Origin: Flavobacterium sp.
GTDB taxonomy: Bacteria; Bacteroidota; Bacteroidia; Flavobacteriales; Flavobacteriaceae
Direction of reading: 5' to 3'
Assembly: GCF_027484705.1 (NCBI RefSeq)
Contig: NZ_JAIXSL010000004.1
Coordinates: forward strand, 56,996 to 120,995
Length of the DNA stretch: 64,000 nt
The position numbers were made by a program, and so were the translations under genes. Numbering within the stretch: the stretch's first letter is position 1; every line of letters starts with the position of its first letter. Below, piece by piece: positions 1,427-36,094 of the stretch. The notes under the pieces are model-generated. The model did no database searches and was not told where the DNA came from. It was given only the letters and a program-made list of their open reading frames with translations.

Positions 1427-3175
1427 TTAACATTCGAAGGTTGTACCTTCCTTACTGTAATAACTTTCATTTGTATCTTCTGGAGGCGAAAGCGAACCAC
1501 CTAAAGCCATAATAGACGCAATTATACCGTCGATGCGTTTGCCGTTCGCATGGCTCTTACCTTTTGAAATTCTGATATTTTCATTTGTATCTTCAATCTT
1601 CACACAACCTGAAAGCATCCATTCCATCACCGGATTACCTTCGTGGATGATTTCACACTTATATACCAAACTTTCAAAAGTTTTAGTAGGATGCGAATAA
1701 TTCGGTAATGTTTGCGTGAACTCAGACAAATTAAATCCTTCATCATCTAAGCGGTTCACCAATGAACTGGAATTATATCGGTCAAATTCAATGCGTCTAA
1801 TTGAATGAGACAAATAATGACTACGGATATAATCTTCAATAATTGCGTAGTCAACTTGATTACCAGGTGTTGCAATCATAAACCCAGAATCAACCCAATA
1901 TCTATAAGGAACAGCATCTTCTTTACTACGTTTTTGAACTGTATCTTCAGGACAAAATAGAAAAACTTTTAGGTAGCGTTTATTTTCATCATCGGGTTCA
2001 GATAATATAGCAAAAGCAGTGATATCTGTAGTTGTAGATAAATCAACAGCCGCATAAGAACCAAACTGATGAAATTTTTCAATAGGCAAAGCCCTTCTTT
2101 CATTTGCAGTCTTAGCACCTTTGTTAAAATCACACATTTTCCAAATTTCAGAAGGAATCCAGATATTATTTCCATCAACCCACATGTTCAGAGATTTTGT
2201 TTTAAAATTTGGAATCTTTGACGGTTGGTTTTTTGCTTTTATAAATTCACGGCGTAAAAAATCGAGTAGTGTAGTACTATGCTGCAAATTAGGATTTGCT
2301 TTTTCCCAATTTTCTTCTAACTCCCAATCATCATCATCATCAAGCTGATGGATCATAATTAAAGTATGATCATCTACATTCAGACCGTTCAAAATATCTT
2401 TATAAGAATCTTCTGCATGCTTACAAACACTTTTTAAATTAAATCCAGCAGTGGTGATAATATATACTAAAGGATTTTCACGCGCTCCCATTGCAGATTC
2501 TAAAACCTCACGAACCCCATCATCTTTATGTGCGTGATACTCATCAATGAAAGCTACAGAAGGATTAAGACTATCAAGCGTTTTACTGTCACCACCTAAA
2601 AACCTGAAAACCGCAGACATTCTAGCGAAACGTATTTCACGCATCGTATTACGAAAACCTAACGTACGCAGTTTTAAAGATTTTTCAACGAAATTATAAG
2701 CTTGTTCCCAAAGCGTTTTAGCCTGAGCTTCTTTCGTAGCTCCTACATATATTTCCGCACCTTCTTCACCATCCATTGCCTCACAATACAAACCTAAACC
2801 CGATAATTGTGTTGTTTTACCGTTTTTACGGCCAACAGTTTCATAAACAAAGTTGATACGACGAAGTCCTGACCCTTTTATTTTCCATGCAAAAATATTG
2901 TATATTGTAAACTGCTGATAAGGCGATAAAACAAATGGTGCTTTCAATTTTGCTAATGGACCTTTTGTATGAACCAAATATCTAGGAAACCATTCAATAA
3001 CAAACATTCCTTCTTTATGATCAAGATAAAAACCTTTTTCATCTGCTTGATCAATCCATTCAGAAAAGCGTTTTGCCGCTAGTTTTATGTATTTTCCACA
3101 AACGATTTTTCCATCTAATACATCCTGAGCGTATTGGAAAGGAACCGAAGATTTCATTTCATCAGAAATAATCAT
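1427..3175 (-). CDS. phage terminase large subunit
   Basis: VYETVGRKNGKTTQLSGLGLY (Walker A region), SVAFIDEYHAHKDDGVREVLESAMGARENPLVYIITTAG, nuclease-like YAAVDLSTTTDITAF. Confidence 0.93.
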   Translation of the reverse strand: MIISDEMKSSVPFQYAQDVLDGKIVCGKYIKLAAKRFSEWIDQADEKGFYLDHKEGMFVIEWFPRYLVHTKGPLAKLKAPFVLSPYQQFTIYNIFAWKIKGSGLRRINFVYETVGRKNGKTTQLSGLGLYCEAMDGEEGAEIYVGATKEAQAKTLWEQAYNFVEKSLKLRTLGFRNTMREIRFARMSAVFRFLGGDSKTLDSLNPSVAFIDEYHAHKDDGVREVLESAMGARENPLVYIITTAGFNLKSVCKHAEDSYKDILNGLNVDDHTLIMIHQLDDDDDWELEENWEKANPNLQHSTTLLDFLRREFIKAKNQPSKIPNFKTKSLNMWVDGNNIWIPSEIWKMCDFNKGAKTANERRALPIEKFHQFGSYAAVDLSTTTDITAFAILSEPDDENKRYLKVFLFCPEDTVQKRSKEDAVPYRYWVDSGFMIATPGNQVDYAIIEDYIRSHYLSHSIRRIEFDRYNSSSLVNRLDDEGFNLSEFTQTLPNYSHPTKTFESLVYKCEIIHEGNPVMEWMLSGCVKIEDTNENIRISKGKSHANGKRIDGIIASIMALGGSLSPPEDTNESYYSKEGTTFEC

Positions 3176-3192: not shown

Positions 3193-4989
3193 TTATACAG
3201 CAATTTTTTGAAAATAATTATGTAGTGATAAATAATTACAACTTACTAATGCTTTAGCTTGGTTTACTTCAACTGCATTACCAATAAATTTTTTTTGTTC
3301 AGTTTGGTTGCCAACAAGTTTATAGTCTTTTGGAAATCCTTGTATTTGTTTTAATTCTGGAATGTTGAGCATTCTCATTTTAATATCATAAATACCGTAA
3401 GAAGCCATGAATTCTTTAATACAAATCATTGTTTCGCTATCATCATCATAAATTGGTATTTGCAACTCACCTAATGAAGTAGATACAATATAAAGAGGCG
3501 CTTTATCTTGACGCGCTACAACCGTGCAGCATGGATTGTCAACACTTCCATTATTTCCACCCCATGAAGGATTGAGAATGAAATTTTTTGTTTTGATAAT
3601 TGAAAACTTCGGAACTGTAGTTAGTGTATTACATGGCTGGTCAATGCCAATTGGTTCACTACTTGTGTATTGTTGATCTATAAAATTGACATCAATTTTA
3701 GCAACTCTATCTTTTGTAGTTATTGTTGGTGAAGGACTTTCAATTGAATGAACACCACCATTACCGTAATAAGTATTTAGATGTGATGCTGTAACAAGTT
3801 CCTGATTTCCTCCTGTCTGTGTAATCGTTCTTGAAGGATTATTAATATCAACCAACTTTGAATTAGGATCACCGGAATTTCTTTGTTGAATAAACTGTGA
3901 TGCTGTAACTATAGCTTGACCGCCAACCGTTGTAACCGATCCTGCTGGACCATCTACACCAATTACTTTTCCTGCTGGTCTACCCGAATAGTATTTCTTA
4001 ATGAAATTAGTTTTTACAAGCGCATGAGTTCCATTTGTGCAAATGGTCCCCATCGGTCTATTGATTGAATTAACTTTTTGTTCTGGATTAATTTTACCAC
4101 CGTTGTAACGTTTTGTAAAAATATCATCACCGTTGGCCACAAATTTTATAAGACCAGCATGGATTCGTTTTAAAGTGTTATCTGATAAAGGTTTTTTTCG
4201 AGTAAAGATGCTTTCGCCTTCATCATCTAAATCTAAAACTTCACGAACTGCTTTCCATTTAAACATAGGAAATAAAGGACTAACTATCTTATCTTTTGTA
4301 TGTGTTTGCTCTGGCCATTGAATAGGATAACCATAATTAGCAAACTGTATAAACAATCGTTCACGACTTTGATAAGCTCCATAGTTCGCAGAATTTAAAA
4401 GTTTAGCATCGTATCGGAAACCATACGATTTTACTTCTTCAATCCATTTAACATAATCTTTTCCTTCAGTTCTTGAAATTGGTTTGCCATTTTCAGAAAG
4501 TGGACCCCAACTCATAAATTCGCGAACATTTTCAACCCAGAAATAATCTGGATCTAATTCCTTCAAATACATAAACATATGTTCTGCTAAAGTTCTACTA
4601 TCAGCATCACGAGCCTGACCGCCTTTAGCTTTTGAAAAATTCGTACATTCCAATGAAGCCCATATATTTACTTTACAATTTGGGAAAACTTTTCGAAGTA
4701 TATTTACTAAATACTTTAATTTTTTAACAACCTCAAAATCACGAATATCTTCAGTAAAATGAAGTGTATTTGGATGATTTAAAGCATGGCTTAATATAGC
4801 ATTTGCATCATGATTTACACAAGCTGCAACAAACATATTTTCAATATCAGTAAAATGAATTCCAGTAGAAGTTCCACCAGCACCGCAAAACAAATCAATC
4901 CAAAAAACCAAAGGTTTTGCAGGATCGTAACTTTTCTTAACGTGCTCGATAAAAAGACTTACGTTTTGTTTTAATTCAAACTTTGTCAT
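3193..4989 (-). CDS. phage DNA (cytosine-5) methyltransferase with repeat-rich C-terminal half
   Basis: WIDLFCGAGGTSTGIH, WASLECTNFSKAKGG, FWVENVREF, MLNIPELKQIQGFP...FIGNAVEVNQAKAL C5-MTase motifs. Confidence 0.93.
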   Translation of the reverse strand: MTKFELKQNVSLFIEHVKKSYDPAKPLVFWIDLFCGAGGTSTGIHFTDIENMFVAACVNHDANAILSHALNHPNTLHFTEDIRDFEVVKKLKYLVNILRKVFPNCKVNIWASLECTNFSKAKGGQARDADSRTLAEHMFMYLKELDPDYFWVENVREFMSWGPLSENGKPISRTEGKDYVKWIEEVKSYGFRYDAKLLNSANYGAYQSRERLFIQFANYGYPIQWPEQTHTKDKIVSPLFPMFKWKAVREVLDLDDEGESIFTRKKPLSDNTLKRIHAGLIKFVANGDDIFTKRYNGGKINPEQKVNSINRPMGTICTNGTHALVKTNFIKKYYSGRPAGKVIGVDGPAGSVTTVGGQAIVTASQFIQQRNSGDPNSKLVDINNPSRTITQTGGNQELVTASHLNTYYGNGGVHSIESPSPTITTKDRVAKIDVNFIDQQYTSSEPIGIDQPCNTLTTVPKFSIIKTKNFILNPSWGGNNGSVDNPCCTVVARQDKAPLYIVSTSLGELQIPIYDDDSETMICIKEFMASYGIYDIKMRMLNIPELKQIQGFPKDYKLVGNQTEQKKFIGNAVEVNQAKALVSCNYLSLHNYFQKIAV

Positions 4990-5012: not shown

Positions 5013-5309
5013 TTAATCGAAAATATACCTGCCATCATCTTCCTGTCTGATTGTTGTTTTAAATGGAAAACCTGAAGGTTTTGGAACTTGTTTAATTGTA
5101 TCCATTAAATAAGAAGAATCTGTCCAGGTTACACGTTTTTCACCTTTATATTCGATTTGCATATCCAGCCTTAGACCTTCATACTTTGATGGACCAATCT
5201 TAAAATCATGCACAATTATTAAAACATTCAATATTTTAGCAATCTTTATTTTTTCGCCAGCGAACCCGGCGCTTTTTTGTTCTATTTTGAAATCTTTGAA
5301 GTTGTTCAT
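5013..5309 (-). CDS. hypothetical phage protein (98 aa) overlapping the RT gene end
   Basis: ORF overlaps RT by ~74 bp; EGLRLDMQIEYKGEKRVTWTDSSYLMDTIKQ; not recognisably Avd. Confidence 0.55.
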   Translation of the reverse strand: MNNFKDFKIEQKSAGFAGEKIKIAKILNVLIIVHDFKIGPSKYEGLRLDMQIEYKGEKRVTWTDSSYLMDTIKQVPKPSGFPFKTTIRQEDDGRYIFD

Positions 5310-6279
5310 GGGTTAGAAGTTTGTTTTGTAAGTTTTTGGTATCTGCATGTATCAACCATCCCCAATAAGCTGCAATAGTTTCATGCTTAGGATGTCTTTT
5401 GAGTTTTCGCACGAAGTTTTTCTTTATCGATTTCCTAATCATGATGTGATCACGAAAAAACACGTAGCCTAGAAAATCAATTCCACGACCATCAAGACTG
5501 TAGCGACTTTTAGCGATTGGGAAAACCTGATAATTATTTTTAACTATAAGTTTTAGATTTACATCAAAGTATTGAGAAATTTTAAAAAATAAATTATGCA
5601 AATAATCTTTGTTATCTGCACAAATCACGATGTCATCAGCATAACGCCAGTAGTATTTTACTCCAATAGTTTCTTTGATCCAATGGTCAAAACCCGTCAA
5701 ATAGAAATTTGCAAAATATTGACTTAAATAATTACCGATTGGAATACCATCAGTGCTATCAATTATTTCATCAAGCAGTTTTAACAAGCGATAATCTTTA
5801 AATTTTCTTCGTAAAAGATTTTTAAGTATTTCGTGATCAACACTAGGATAGAATTTTTTAATATCCAGTTTCAAACAGTATTTTGTACTCGATTCATCTA
5901 AAAGCGATTTCTGCAAGGATTTTTTAGCTGCATGAATACCTTTTCCTTTAATACAGCTATACGTATCATTTGTGAACATTCCTGTAAAAATAGGTTCAAG
6001 CACATTCATTATTGCGTGATGTGTTATGCGATCAGGATAATATGGCAACCTATAAACGATACGTTCTTTTGGCTCGAAAACTTTAAAAGTTGAATATTCT
6101 GATGTATGGTAATCCTGATTGATAAGAATTTCTCGTAACGCAACTAAGAACCCTTCGGGATTTTTATCGAATAATCGAATACCATACTGTTTAGATTTTC
6201 CCTTTCTGGCTTTTTTATCAGCCAGAATGAGATTATCCATATGAGTAATTTTATCGAAAAGATTATTTATGCGTTTCAT
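5236..6279 (-). CDS. reverse transcriptase of a diversity-generating retroelement
   Basis: RT motifs KYCLKLDIKKFYPSVDHEIL, GIPIGNYLSQYFANFYL (DGR-like SQ box), YYWRYADDIVICAD, FLGYVFF; adjacent to TR/VR repeats. Confidence 0.95.
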   Translation of the reverse strand: MKRINNLFDKITHMDNLILADKKARKGKSKQYGIRLFDKNPEGFLVALREILINQDYHTSEYSTFKVFEPKERIVYRLPYYPDRITHHAIMNVLEPIFTGMFTNDTYSCIKGKGIHAAKKSLQKSLLDESSTKYCLKLDIKKFYPSVDHEILKNLLRRKFKDYRLLKLLDEIIDSTDGIPIGNYLSQYFANFYLTGFDHWIKETIGVKYYWRYADDIVICADNKDYLHNLFFKISQYFDVNLKLIVKNNYQVFPIAKSRYSLDGRGIDFLGYVFFRDHIMIRKSIKKNFVRKLKRHPKHETIAAYWGWLIHADTKNLQNKLLTHEQLQRFQNRTKKRRVRWRKNKDC

Positions 6280-6396
6280 AGCCTTTGTTTCTCAGTCCAC
6301 GTTCTTAACAAATTATTGAATACTAGCGGACATCTTTATTCTTTATGTTTTTTGCCTAGAGGCAAGGTCTGCACCGAGCAATTATATTACAAATAT

Positions 6397-6467
6397 GGGC
6401 ACTGGCATTCGTGTTCGTGTTCCAGTTATCGTAGTCGTTGTACGCCCAGCTGGAACTGGAAGAAGAA
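6397..6467 (-). repeat. DGR template repeat (TR), ~71 bp
   Basis: Non-coding copy between RT and the targets; minus-strand reading has AAC/AAT/AGT/AGC codons (SSSSSWAYNDYDNWNTNTNASA); matches three VRs except almost only at TR adenines. Confidence 0.95.
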
Positions 6468-6501
6468 CAGAACAACAGTAACGATGCACAACCCTTTTTA
6501 T

Positions 6502-6888
6502 CTATAGAACTGCGTTATACAATTCTGGAAATGTTTTAACCGTGTCAATCATTACATCGTACGATCTAAATTCACGGCGGGCACCGGCATACGAGTACGT
6601 GAGCCAGCGAACGTAGTCGAAAGACGCCCAGCCGGAACCGGAAGAAGAAGGTCTAAAATATGGTTTATACTTATACCGGCTATAATTTTCATAATCGGGA
6701 ATCCAAGGATTATCTTGACCTTCATTATTTTTTGCAGGAATAATAATGTCGAGTTGATAATTTGCAATAGCGCGTGACCTAGCAGGCTCCGAAAGTTGTT
6801 CCAAAATTGCAAGATCTTTCCCAACAATTTGCATATCGATTTTTTCAGCCTGACAAGCGGCCTCGAATGATTTGATTTTTGATTCCAT
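6502..6888 (-). CDS. DGR target protein 1 (C-type-lectin-like variable domain)
   Basis: ...PSSSGSGWASFDYVRWLTYSYAGARREFRSYD; VR near C-terminus. Confidence 0.9.
   Translation of the reverse strand: MESKIKSFEAACQAEKIDMQIVGKDLAILEQLSEPARSRAIANYQLDIIIPAKNNEGQDNPWIPDYENYSRYKYKPYFRPSSSGSGWASFDYVRWLTYSYAGARREFRSYDVMIDTVKTFPELYNAVL
6579..6649 (-). repeat. DGR variable repeat VR1
   Basis: Aligned by eye to TR: 14 substitutions at TR adenines (T on + strand), 1 elsewhere. Confidence 0.95.
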
Positions 6889-6891
6889 GTC

Positions 6892-7272
6892 TTATTTTTT
6901 TTGATTTAAGTAATTCAATATATGCACGTATTTTTCGAAAAACTGATCAACAGTTTCCCGCATCATTTCGTATGATCTGAACGGGCGGGCACCGGCATCC
7001 GTGATCGTGTACCAGAAAACGTAGACGTAGTACGCCCAGCCGGAACCGGAAGAAGAATCTTTAGTAAATACTGGCCAATACTTTCTTGATAGGCCATTCC
7101 AAGGTTTTTCTAAACCTTCATTGTTTTTTGCTTCAACGATGGTATCTAGTTCAAAAAGTTCATTAAAGTAATTTCTTTGTAACTCAGGTAACATCGAAAA
7201 ATCTGGACGAACATTTGGGTCTTTTCCCAAAGCTACACATGCAGCTTCGTAGGAGTTAATTGTTGTAGTCAT
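6892..7272 (-). CDS. DGR target protein 2 (C-type-lectin-like variable domain)
   Basis: ...DSSSGSGWAYYVYVFWYTITDAGARPFRSYEMM; paralogue of target 1. Confidence 0.9.
   Translation of the reverse strand: MTTTINSYEAACVALGKDPNVRPDFSMLPELQRNYFNELFELDTIVEAKNNEGLEKPWNGLSRKYWPVFTKDSSSGSGWAYYVYVFWYTITDAGARPFRSYEMMRETVDQFFEKYVHILNYLNQKK
6987..7057 (-). repeat. DGR variable repeat VR2
   Basis: 11 substitutions relative to TR, all at TR adenines. Confidence 0.95.
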
Positions 7273-7282
7273 TTTGTTGGTT

Positions 7283-7759
7283 TTAAATTAATTGATAAGC
7301 TTTTTTATATATTTCCGGAAATCTTTCTACGCAAATTTTTACGTGATCAGGATTGATAAATCCGAGGCGGGCACCGGCATCCGTGCTCGTGACCCAGTAA
7401 ACGGAGACGTCGAACGCCCAGCCGGAACCGGAAGAATATTTAGCATAAGGGAAATAAAAGTAATTTCCTGTTGACCAATCAGCATCTTTACAACCATTGA
7501 AGCAGTAAACAATTAGCAGCCATAAAACCATATTATTGCCAGCAATAACATCACGGTTATTTGTTGCTGGAAAATTATAATCTTCAGGATTAGCACCAGT
7601 TTCTTTAAAAACATCATCGAGCGTTAGCACACGATCTTCAACATTTTTTAAAAATTGGTGATCAGGATAAAGACTGATCAAAAGTTTTTTACCTTCAGAA
7701 TCAGCAACCGCGAATGCTTTATCCGCATCTGAAGATTTGAGTTTAAGTGTTTTTTTCAT
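7283..7759 (-). CDS. DGR target protein 3 (C-type-lectin-like variable domain)
   Basis: ...YSSGSGWAFDVSVYWVTSTDAGARLGF; longer divergent N-terminus. Confidence 0.9.
   Translation of the reverse strand: MKKTLKLKSSDADKAFAVADSEGKKLLISLYPDHQFLKNVEDRVLTLDDVFKETGANPEDYNFPATNNRDVIAGNNMVLWLLIVYCFNGCKDADWSTGNYFYFPYAKYSSGSGWAFDVSVYWVTSTDAGARLGFINPDHVKICVERFPEIYKKAYQLI
7369..7436 (-). repeat. DGR variable repeat VR3
   Basis: 13 substitutions relative to TR core, all at TR adenines. Confidence 0.94.
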
Positions 7760-7797: not shown

Positions 7798-8307
7798 TTA
7801 CCCTTGTTTTTTAAGCATTTCTTTTTCAAAAAGCGAAAGCTGTGAACTATCATCGCTTCCAGTTTCTTTTAAACTCAGACGATCTTTAAAGCTAAATCCA
7901 AAATGCTTTGAAAATGATTCAATTTCTTTTAGCATTTTTTCCCGAAGCGTAACATGTCCTGAAACATTTGAGGCTCCAGAGCCAAAAGTTTGAACTAAAC
8001 CTCCATTATAGCCACGAGTATTTATCTGTTCTTCTGCTTGTAAATAGTAATCAACAGATCGAGCTAATGCATGAAGATGAATTAAATCAGGCTTTGTAAG
8101 TTTGTTTGATTCTACCAACATTTTTCCGAAATAACGATACCAGAATTTTTGATTATCAGTCAAATTAATTTTAGGCATTGGTGCCGGTAGGGATTTTAAA
8201 ATCTCATACAGATTTTTGTTCACTTCCACAACTTCACCGTCATTTCTTAAAACTTTCATATTTGCTTTTGACATAACTAACATTATTAAATTAGACCCCC
8301 CCACCAA
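7798..8307 (-). CDS. phage terminase small subunit (P27-like)
   Basis: LPAPMPKINLTDNQKFWYRYFGKMLVESNKLTKPDLIHLHALARSVDYYLQAEEQINTRGYNGGLVQTFGSG...; size and position. Confidence 0.72.
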   Translation of the reverse strand: MVGGSNLIMLVMSKANMKVLRNDGEVVEVNKNLYEILKSLPAPMPKINLTDNQKFWYRYFGKMLVESNKLTKPDLIHLHALARSVDYYLQAEEQINTRGYNGGLVQTFGSGASNVSGHVTLREKMLKEIESFSKHFGFSFKDRLSLKETGSDDSSQLSLFEKEMLKKQG

Positions 8308-33553: not shown

Positions 33554-36094
33554 ATGGCAATGAAAAAAATTAATTTTGGTATAGACCTGGGCACTACAAA
33601 TTCCGCATTGGTAAAGGTAAACCAAGGGTCGTTGATGGTATACAAAAGTGAATTCCAGAAAGATACGACACCGTCGTGTGTCAGTTTCAACAAAAAAGGA
33701 AATATCAGGGTCGGGGATGGAGCGCTCAATGGTTTTCGCAGTGATATGAGGCTCGCCTTGCGGAAAACCGATGACAATACTTCAAATACCTTTCTGGAAT
33801 TTAAAAGGACAATGGGCACTGACAAGGTGTATTACAGCTCCAATGTCAGCGAACAGTTCTCTTCCGAGCAATTGTCAGCGGAAGTCCTGAAAAAGCTAAA
33901 GACTTATGTCGATAATGAAACGGTTGATGCAGCTGTAATCACAGTGCCCGCAAAATTCCGGCAGAACCAGCTCGACGCCACGCAAAGGGCAGCAAAACTC
34001 GCCGGATTCAAGTATGTGGATTTATTGCAGGAACCCATAGCGGCCTCCATAGCTTACGGATTGGAAAGCAAAAACCTGAATGGCTTCTGGATTGTCTTTG
34101 ATTTCGGAGGAGGAACATTTGATGCCGCACTCATGAAAGTAGACCAGGGCGTCATGAAGGTCATAGATACCGAAGGCGATAACCACTTGGGCGGTAAGAA
34201 TATCGATTACCAAGTTGTCGATGAGATATTCTTTCCTTTCCTGCGCAAAAACTACCAGATCCAGGAACTCGAAAACAATCCGCTAAAAAAAGCACTGTTG
34301 CGTGATGCTCTGAAATCATTGGCCGAAGAAGCCAAAATCCAGCTCAGTGTAAAGGATAAGTATGAGATTCTGACCGACGAGCCTATCTGTCTGGATGATG
34401 TCGGTGAGGAAATTGAAGTTGACCTGCAGCTTGACGTTGCGCAGTTCCACGATGTAGTGAGGCCTATATACCAAAGGTCTGTCGATATCATCAAGACAAT
34501 ACTGGACAGGAACAATATGTCCAAAAGCCAGCTCAATACGATAATACTCGTAGGAGGTGCCACCTATTGCAGGCTCATCAGGGAAATGCTTGCCGCGCAG
34601 ATTTGCCCGAATGTAGACACCAGTATAGATCCTATGCTCGCCATAGCCAAAGGTGCGGCCGTGTATGCCTCTACAAGGGATGCACAAATTACCGATACCA
34701 ACAATGATGCTCAGCAACCATACCAGCAGCGAGATTCCAACGACATCTTGGAACTTGATATCACCTATCCAAGCACAACGACAGAAATGGAAGTAAAGGT
34801 TGGGATTAAAATCCTCAACAAAGACGAGAAGAACTACAGCTATCAATTGGCGCGCAACGATGGTGCCTGGACAAGTGAGACCATTAAGTTCAATAACGAC
34901 AGGGCAGTTTTATCGGTGCTACTACTCAAGGACACCATCAATACATTCAAAATAACCATGATATCAGATCAGGGCGATATCGTAGCTTTCCACCCAAACT
35001 ATTTCTCCATCATACAAGGAATGGATATCGCCAATGCCACATTGCCCTATTCGATCTGTATCGATGTATTCAATTCCAAGCGCCAGGCAGATTTATTAGC
35101 GTTACTCCCAGGACTTGAAAAAAACCAAAAGCTTCCGGCCAAAGGGAAAGCGCTGTTCTATACACCATCTGATATCAGGCCAGGACACAATGAAGACAGG
35201 ATAGAAATTACGATTTATGAAGGCGATCCTGAAACCCGCGCGGTCTATAATGAACCCATAGGCAAACTTTCTGTTACCGGAGAGCATGTAAACCGTTTCA
35301 TTCCGGCACATCAGGAAATAGAGGTCATGCTTGAAGTGGACAGTTCGCGCAGGATGAAGTTGTCGGTTTATTTGCCTTATATCGATGAATCGATCGATTT
35401 CGATTTGCCTGAGATGAAGCAGAACGAGTATGATTCCGAGAATATCGTGGCCGAGATCAATACTGCTAGGGACGAGCTTTTCCACCTTAAGGGAGAACCA
35501 AAGCAAGGGCAAAACGAAAAGGTCCTGAAACTTAGCAACGAGCTCGATGTCATCAATACGCTATTGCAAAACAGCGCGAATGATTACAATACTAAAACCC
35601 AGGTTGTGGAGCGGCTACGCGAAATCTGCATCATAATCGATAATTTGAAATACCAGAACGAATGGCCTAAAGTCGAAGAAGTATTGCGCGAAGGGTTTGA
35701 AAGCATGGGCGAGATCATCCAGACTTATGGCGATGAGAACCATGCAAAACAATTTGCGTTGCTGCAGAAAATGGCCAATCAGATATTGGTTACAAAGGAT
35801 ATTCCCAATGCTAAGTTGCTCATAGAAAAAATTATGGATTTCAGGCAGGAATTGATCAACCGCAATCCGCAGTCATGGGTATATGCACTAGAAAACTTTG
35901 AGATGCAGTTTGACCTTTATTCCTGGAATGACAGGCAATTGGCGAAGGACACCATGGATTATGCACTCCAGAATATAAGCAACGCTGCCGTAGTGAAAAG
36001 TTCTGTCCTCAAACTGTTTTCCTTATTGCCAAACGAAGAGAATGAGGAAATCCTGAGACCAATTAAAAATAATTACAAACCACGGATGAATTAA
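33554..36094 (+). CDS. Hsp70/DnaK-family protein (divergent, 846 aa)
   Basis: INFGIDLGTTNSALVKV, LLQEPIAASIAYGLE, WIVFDFGGGTFDAALMKV, TIILVGGATYCRLIREML. Confidence 0.95.
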   Translation: MAMKKINFGIDLGTTNSALVKVNQGSLMVYKSEFQKDTTPSCVSFNKKGNIRVGDGALNGFRSDMRLALRKTDDNTSNTFLEFKRTMGTDKVYYSSNVSEQFSSEQLSAEVLKKLKTYVDNETVDAAVITVPAKFRQNQLDATQRAAKLAGFKYVDLLQEPIAASIAYGLESKNLNGFWIVFDFGGGTFDAALMKVDQGVMKVIDTEGDNHLGGKNIDYQVVDEIFFPFLRKNYQIQELENNPLKKALLRDALKSLAEEAKIQLSVKDKYEILTDEPICLDDVGEEIEVDLQLDVAQFHDVVRPIYQRSVDIIKTILDRNNMSKSQLNTIILVGGATYCRLIREMLAAQICPNVDTSIDPMLAIAKGAAVYASTRDAQITDTNNDAQQPYQQRDSNDILELDITYPSTTTEMEVKVGIKILNKDEKNYSYQLARNDGAWTSETIKFNNDRAVLSVLLLKDTINTFKITMISDQGDIVAFHPNYFSIIQGMDIANATLPYSICIDVFNSKRQADLLALLPGLEKNQKLPAKGKALFYTPSDIRPGHNEDRIEITIYEGDPETRAVYNEPIGKLSVTGEHVNRFIPAHQEIEVMLEVDSSRRMKLSVYLPYIDESIDFDLPEMKQNEYDSENIVAEINTARDELFHLKGEPKQGQNEKVLKLSNELDVINTLLQNSANDYNTKTQVVERLREICIIIDNLKYQNEWPKVEEVLREGFESMGEIIQTYGDENHAKQFALLQKMANQILVTKDIPNAKLLIEKIMDFRQELINRNPQSWVYALENFEMQFDLYSWNDRQLAKDTMDYALQNISNAAVVKSSVLKLFSLLPNEENEEILRPIKNNYKPRMN

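Follow-up and report, generated by a model that had tools for sequence, protein, structure and literature searches.

Does the reverse transcriptase (RT) cassette in a Flavobacterium prophage belong to a working diversity-generating retroelement (DGR), and if so, what are its three small target proteins for? The cassette lies in the window, a 64,000-nt stretch of Flavobacterium sp. DNA, and all of its parts are carried on the minus strand in the order target 3, target 2, target 1, template repeat (TR), RT and a 98-aa gene (Table 1). It is virtually certain that the locus is a genuine DGR. A non-coding TR lies near the RT, and homologous variable repeats (VRs) lie in coding genes. We favor a reading, to which we assign a probability of about 0.6 as a whole, in which this is a functional DGR with three small targets, a helper protein in an Avd-like role, and targets that are binding proteins outside the tail. 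The device is known; the build of this lineage is unusual, combining two to three tiny paralogous targets located away from the tail genes with a helper that is not Avd.

The cassette sits inside a temperate Flavobacterium phage, a prophage. Upstream of it are genes for a DnaB helicase, an HNH endonuclease and the small terminase subunit, and downstream of it those for a C5-cytosine methyltransferase and the large terminase subunit; a head protease, the major head protein, connectors, a tape measure protein, a tail protein and an integrase follow past the left edge of the window. The original prediction of a DGR with one template and three targets in a prophage is supported by the phrog_1423 match of the RT, the four copies of the repeat in the genome, the adenine bias and the relatives described below. 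All of its coordinates were correct, but its span (5236-7759) left the 98-aa gene, which overlaps the RT and is co-conserved with it, outside, and its list of parts lacked both this helper gene and a structured spacer RNA.

Table 1. Coordinates of the cassette and neighboring genes in the window, followed by distal VRs of the same target family in other phages.
Feature	Position	Strand	Length	Remarks
Terminase large subunit (TerL)	1427-3175	-		PF03354, PF20441, phrog_9
C5-cytosine DNA methyltransferase	3193-4989	-		PF00145, phrog_116
Helper gene ("A4" family)	5013-5309	-	98 aa	phrog_19665; start overlaps RT 3' end
DGR RT	5236-6279	-	347 aa	RVT_1 E = 1.1e-16; phrog_1423 E = 1e-112
Structured spacer RNA	6265-6369	-		Rfam RF03020 RT-17; between TR and RT
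TR	6397-6467	-	71 nt	19 adenines
Target 1	6502-6888	-	128 aa	target-family HMM E = 9.8e-34
VR1	6579-6649	-		15 differences from TR, 14 on A; p = 7e-10
Target 2	6892-7272	-	126 aa	target-family HMM E = 2.6e-31
VR2	6987-7057	-		11 differences from TR, 11 on A; p = 3e-8
Target 3	7283-7759	-	158 aa	long form with N-terminal extension; target-family HMM E = 2.5e-23
VR3	7369-7436	-		13 differences from TR, 13 on A; p = 5e-10
Terminase small subunit (TerS)	7798-8277	-		PF05119, phrog_83
LoVEphage distal VR	L198:16260-16372 (record MW660583.1, ~34004-34116)		113 nt	19 A changes, 0 others
Versailles distal VR	L205:1741-1847		107 nt	14 A changes, 0 others
BT-TP2 distal VR	L210:122-239		118 nt	13 A changes, 0 others
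crAss cr60_1 distal VR	L199:4213-4275		63 nt	14 A changes, 2 others

The RT and the repeats

The RT open reading frame is intact and carries the motifs GIPIGNYLSQ and YADD, and models of group II intron, retron and DRT reverse transcriptases gave no hit to it above cut-off. Its identity to close RTs is 57-65% across 80 IMG/VR loci, or 52-65% when 36 genome loci are added, and most of the 80 IMG/VR loci have A-biased TR/VR pairs of their own. A quick tree placed the window RT among entries that have both small targets and the helper; support for the whole grouping is moderate (80-91 SH-aLRT) and a number of outgroup branches are long, so that the tree is supportive rather than decisive. RT phylogeny had been proposed as a check on the original prediction, which an RT outside the DGR clade would have refuted; this did not occur, as the RT clusters with those of loci possessing TR/VR pairs themselves.

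The TR, which would encode SSSSSSWAYNDYDNWNTNTNASA, aligns without gaps to the VRs, which lie in frame within three consecutive ORFs. With the three VRs pooled, 38 of 39 differences from the TR fall on its adenines (hypergeometric tests for each VR in Table 1), and 17 of the 19 adenine positions vary, those at TR positions 50 and 60 being invariant. The sole non-A difference is a C to T change at TR position 28 in VR1. A recount reproduced exactly the previously reported repeat coordinates, the number of TR adenines and both of these ratios. A masked-A pattern search of the 3.35-Mb genome matched exactly four places, the TR and the three VRs, with no places matched by the reversed pattern; this search found no further VR copies elsewhere in the host genome. 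Hairpins like the BPP-1 cruciform were not enriched 3' of the VRs (5.2% vs. 4.2% in shuffled sequence, stem of at least 6). A plus-strand ORF spanning the TR (6241-6507) shows no sign of being a gene and is probably spurious.

Compared with the BPP-1 DGR (Brt, Avd, Mtd), the cassette shares an RT, a TR upstream of it, adenine-directed TR/VR differences, a structured spacer between TR and RT, and VRs near the target C-terminus, although about 25-31 residues follow the VRs here, unlike in BPP-1. It differs in its shorter TR (71 vs. 134 nt), in having three targets of 126-158 aa rather than one 381-aa tail protein, and in lacking Avd and having another helper, of 98 aa, downstream of the RT.

The small targets and their possible role

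The targets form a single family whose members are either short (~125 aa) or long (~155 aa, with an N-terminal extension), and target 3 is homologous to target 1. Of 52 short members, 50 are matched by phrog_11581. BLAST with the window's own target returned no match in phages or IMG/VR, and relatives were found via the RT. Of 88 non-redundant loci, 65 have two VR-bearing targets, 19 have three and 4 have a single one. A published survey (PMC6642488) found several VRs in 28.6% of its DGRs, and the original prediction regarded three targets as less usual; in this RT lineage, 84 of the 88 loci have two or three. In most outgroup DGRs (RT identity up to ~44%), a single long VR (>100 nt) sits within a large protein. 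Of 327 adenine changes close to the 5' end of the repeat, 281 are to G, and the TR there codes for Ser where the family keeps Gly; this preference probably results from selection. Some relatives arrange the targets differently. At L037:6523-7374 and in L118 (286-aa ORF), a single ORF joins two target units that both have a VR of their own, and in L078-L080 a third target lies ~6 kb downstream of the RT. In L193 (7824-8573, genome G642), one VR-bearing member of the target family has an extra C-terminal domain of ~125 aa, and only the last 76 nt of that DGR's 113-nt TR feed it.

The targets had been described as C-type-lectin-like from the residues around the VRs. This was not borne out at the level of the whole protein, as the family has no relatives in Pfam, NCBIfam or the PDB. 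Two AlphaFold target models (pLDDT 86, pTM 0.79-0.80) are helical at the N-terminus, end in two helices at the C-terminus and have a VR loop of low confidence; they matched no PDB fold, and in a viral structure library they matched uncharacterised phage proteins alone. The VR segment by itself does resemble the VRs of tail-collar lectins that are targets of the same TR in LoVEphage, Versailles and cr60_1. It is possible that the target is a reduced lectin.

This resemblance also counts in favor of a role at the tail. Most described phage DGR targets are tail proteins (PMC8144416), and the small targets could be virion or tail-tip receptor-binding subunits, like Mtd of BPP-1, with the paralogues widening host range. 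Since the window targets lie between TerS and TerL and share a strand with the structural genes, a virion role and late expression are possible. Against this, none of the targets matches a tail family, and the tail genes of this prophage are not adjacent to the cassette (~12-18 kb away). In 25 Mu-like relatives, the cassette shares its strand with MuA/MuB and follows them wherever they can be recognized, and 23 of these loci carry the head genes on the other strand; together with the lack of similarity to tail proteins, this argues against a tail-fiber role. We consider the tail-subunit explanation less likely than not, though far from negligible.

Members of the same family outside the cassette point in the same direction. 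They are DGR targets too, in two bacterial genomes at 11 and roughly 38 kb from the RT, and in LoVEphage, Versailles, BT-TP2 and cr60_1, where the same TR also feeds a tail-type target; a shuffled control of the distal-VR search gave 0/60. In LoVEphage, the second VR is unannotated and lies ~15 kb from the DGR, on the strand opposite to the tail-collar target. The small-family gene that bears it is annotated as "hypothetical, no hits" and is in the early region, ~1.7 kb from a cytosine methyltransferase gene; in both LoVEphage and crAss cr60_1 the family occupies early or accessory regions. Phages of the LoVEphage type thus already diversify a tail collar, and the small-family protein is separate from it, among early genes. 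A 2025 Nature paper (PMC12629997) independently found that four gut prophage species carry a second, distal VR close to DNA methyltransferases, and the account of distal VRs given there does not name the small target family. Those gut prophage DGRs resemble the present one in that a single TR serves multiple targets and a second VR is near DNA methyltransferase genes; their main target is a tail protein, whereas the window has only small-family targets, in tandem in the cassette.

Under the reading that we prefer, the targets would most likely be soluble, phage-encoded binding proteins whose loop is randomized and which are produced apart from the tail module and, judging by gene context, are perhaps aimed at host or defense factors rather than serving as tail fibers. 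We put the odds that they are non-tail proteins at about even, and a role against host defense is a conjecture from context. A broader proposal, which we offer tentatively, is that this is a branch of DGRs with a dedicated non-Avd partner, serving small non-tail binders, so that hypermutation would also operate inside the cell, for example against variable host defense factors, and that the same family is a hidden additional, distal target in several gut Bacteroides and crAss-like phages. If the targets do act inside the cell, programmed hypermutation in phages would serve a role other than host attachment, an idea open to testing in those cultured Bacteroides phages that have a distal copy (BT-TP2, Versailles, LoVE-type).

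The putative helper gene and the spacer RNA

The 98-aa helper is the most constant companion of the RT and the targets. Clustering of neighbors across the 88 loci found the RT in 88, targets in 87, the helper in 67 at BLAST level, and any other family in at most 23; with an HMM, the helper adjoins the RT in 110 of 116 clade loci. RT stop and helper start overlap by 13 nt in 36 of 67 loci, and this overlap suggests coupled translation. No helper was detectable in the clade loci L019, L032, L078-L080 and L124. The position of the helper varies beyond this layout. In the archaeal virus ANMV-1 and the Methanosarcinales phage vir525 it is a separate gene after the RT, in L142 it precedes the RT, and in hankyphage p00 (L186:2023-3327) and L138 it is fused as the RT C-terminus; for p00, hhalign supports homology of the RT C-terminus to the helper with E = 1e-16. 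The Bacteroides hankyphage p00 DGR (PMC6199706) thus has a homologous helper domain, and differs in this fusion, in its single very large lectin tail target and in its 116-117-bp TR. The ANMV-1 DGR (PMC4372165) likewise has a homologous helper, directly after the RT, and differs in its single large target, AdtA.

The helper family has no meaningful match in Pfam or the PDB. An Avd of the BPP-1 type was found in nine loci, all of which lack the helper, and the window's cassette has no Avd-like ORF. A search of nine clade phage records with PF05635 (Avd family) gave no match, and the copies in host genomes are on other contigs. Because the helper co-occurs with the RT, is fused to it in some phages and is found where Avd is absent, we infer that it may be the RT's partner, its product most likely serving the RT as Avd does in BPP-1; we hold this replacement of Avd to be slightly more probable than its opposite. 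According to PMC10053308, Wu et al. 2018 (NAR) reported one DGR-linked protein that has no Pfam family, and the helper may be this unnamed accessory protein. If the helper is the RT's working partner, two or more unrelated proteins fill this role in DGRs, which would open the way to comparative enzymology and to new tools for mutagenesis, built on a 71-nt template with three targets.

The spacer between TR and RT is conserved and matches the Rfam family RT-17 over its full length, but in the window it scores below the gathering threshold (cmscan, 34.2 vs. 40.4 bits; E = 9e-5), which the relatives L013, L021 and L048 pass. It forms a hairpin (6364-6353) that shows compensatory changes, a second stem (~6332-6300) in which an invariant GUA stands opposite GAA, an arrangement reminiscent of a loop-E/S-turn motif, and an upper stem that covaries. 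Across 69 sequences including the window, there were 177 double-change cells versus 46.9 in shuffled alignments, and 95.7% of cells pair, falling to <46% when the alignment is slid by one column.

Homing activity in the lineage

By analogy with BPP-1, whose DGR has been reconstituted in laboratory E. coli (PMC12875486) and from which the enzymology of cDNA synthesis and homing is drawn, the TR transcript with the RT-17 spacer RNA at its 3' side would be reverse-transcribed by the RT with random bases placed opposite adenines, and the cDNA would replace the VR of any of the three paralogous targets through mutagenic retrohoming that acts on each VR independently. The 191 repeat pairs obtained by scanning for an A bias contain 2,677 A versus 63 non-A mismatches, a biased estimate given that the scan tolerates A mismatches; the unbiased test of A-direction is the comparison among near-identical relatives. 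Five near-identical versions of one phage (L061/63/64/65/71) show 37 differences in their VRs, 35 of which are at TR adenines; elsewhere they differ at 2 sites in ~2,800 columns, the TR is unchanged, and the three VRs have each changed separately. Two near-identical pairs gave 11/11 (L068/70) and 9/9 (L078/79) VR differences on TR adenines. VR differences among relatives are therefore concentrated on TR adenines, as the original prediction requires of a DGR. Because these relatives differ almost solely at the TR-adenine positions of the VRs and never in the TR, the DGR belongs to an active lineage. Such sequence comparisons show that homing is A-directed and that this type of cassette is active in relatives of the same RT clade; the window's own copy would by extension be active at present.

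The same evidence weighs on two further explanations. The repeats could be footprints of past retrohoming in a DGR that has since decayed, and a same-genus search indeed found neither a same-species strain match nor a near-identical copy of the window's prophage, the nearest relatives having ~60% RT identity. Such decay is improbable, given that all five genes are intact, the alignment of the repeats is gap-free, a single change in 39 is not on an adenine, and the RT-17 RNA is kept. The targets are paralogues, and the idea that the three VRs arose from gene duplication and ordinary divergence rather than repeated homing can be dismissed, as it would lead one to expect non-A differences between VRs and conflicts with the observed A bias: differences from one VR to another are on TR-A positions (11/12, 12/13 and 7/7) while the rest of the proteins diverges freely, and strain comparisons of relatives show independent change in each VR.
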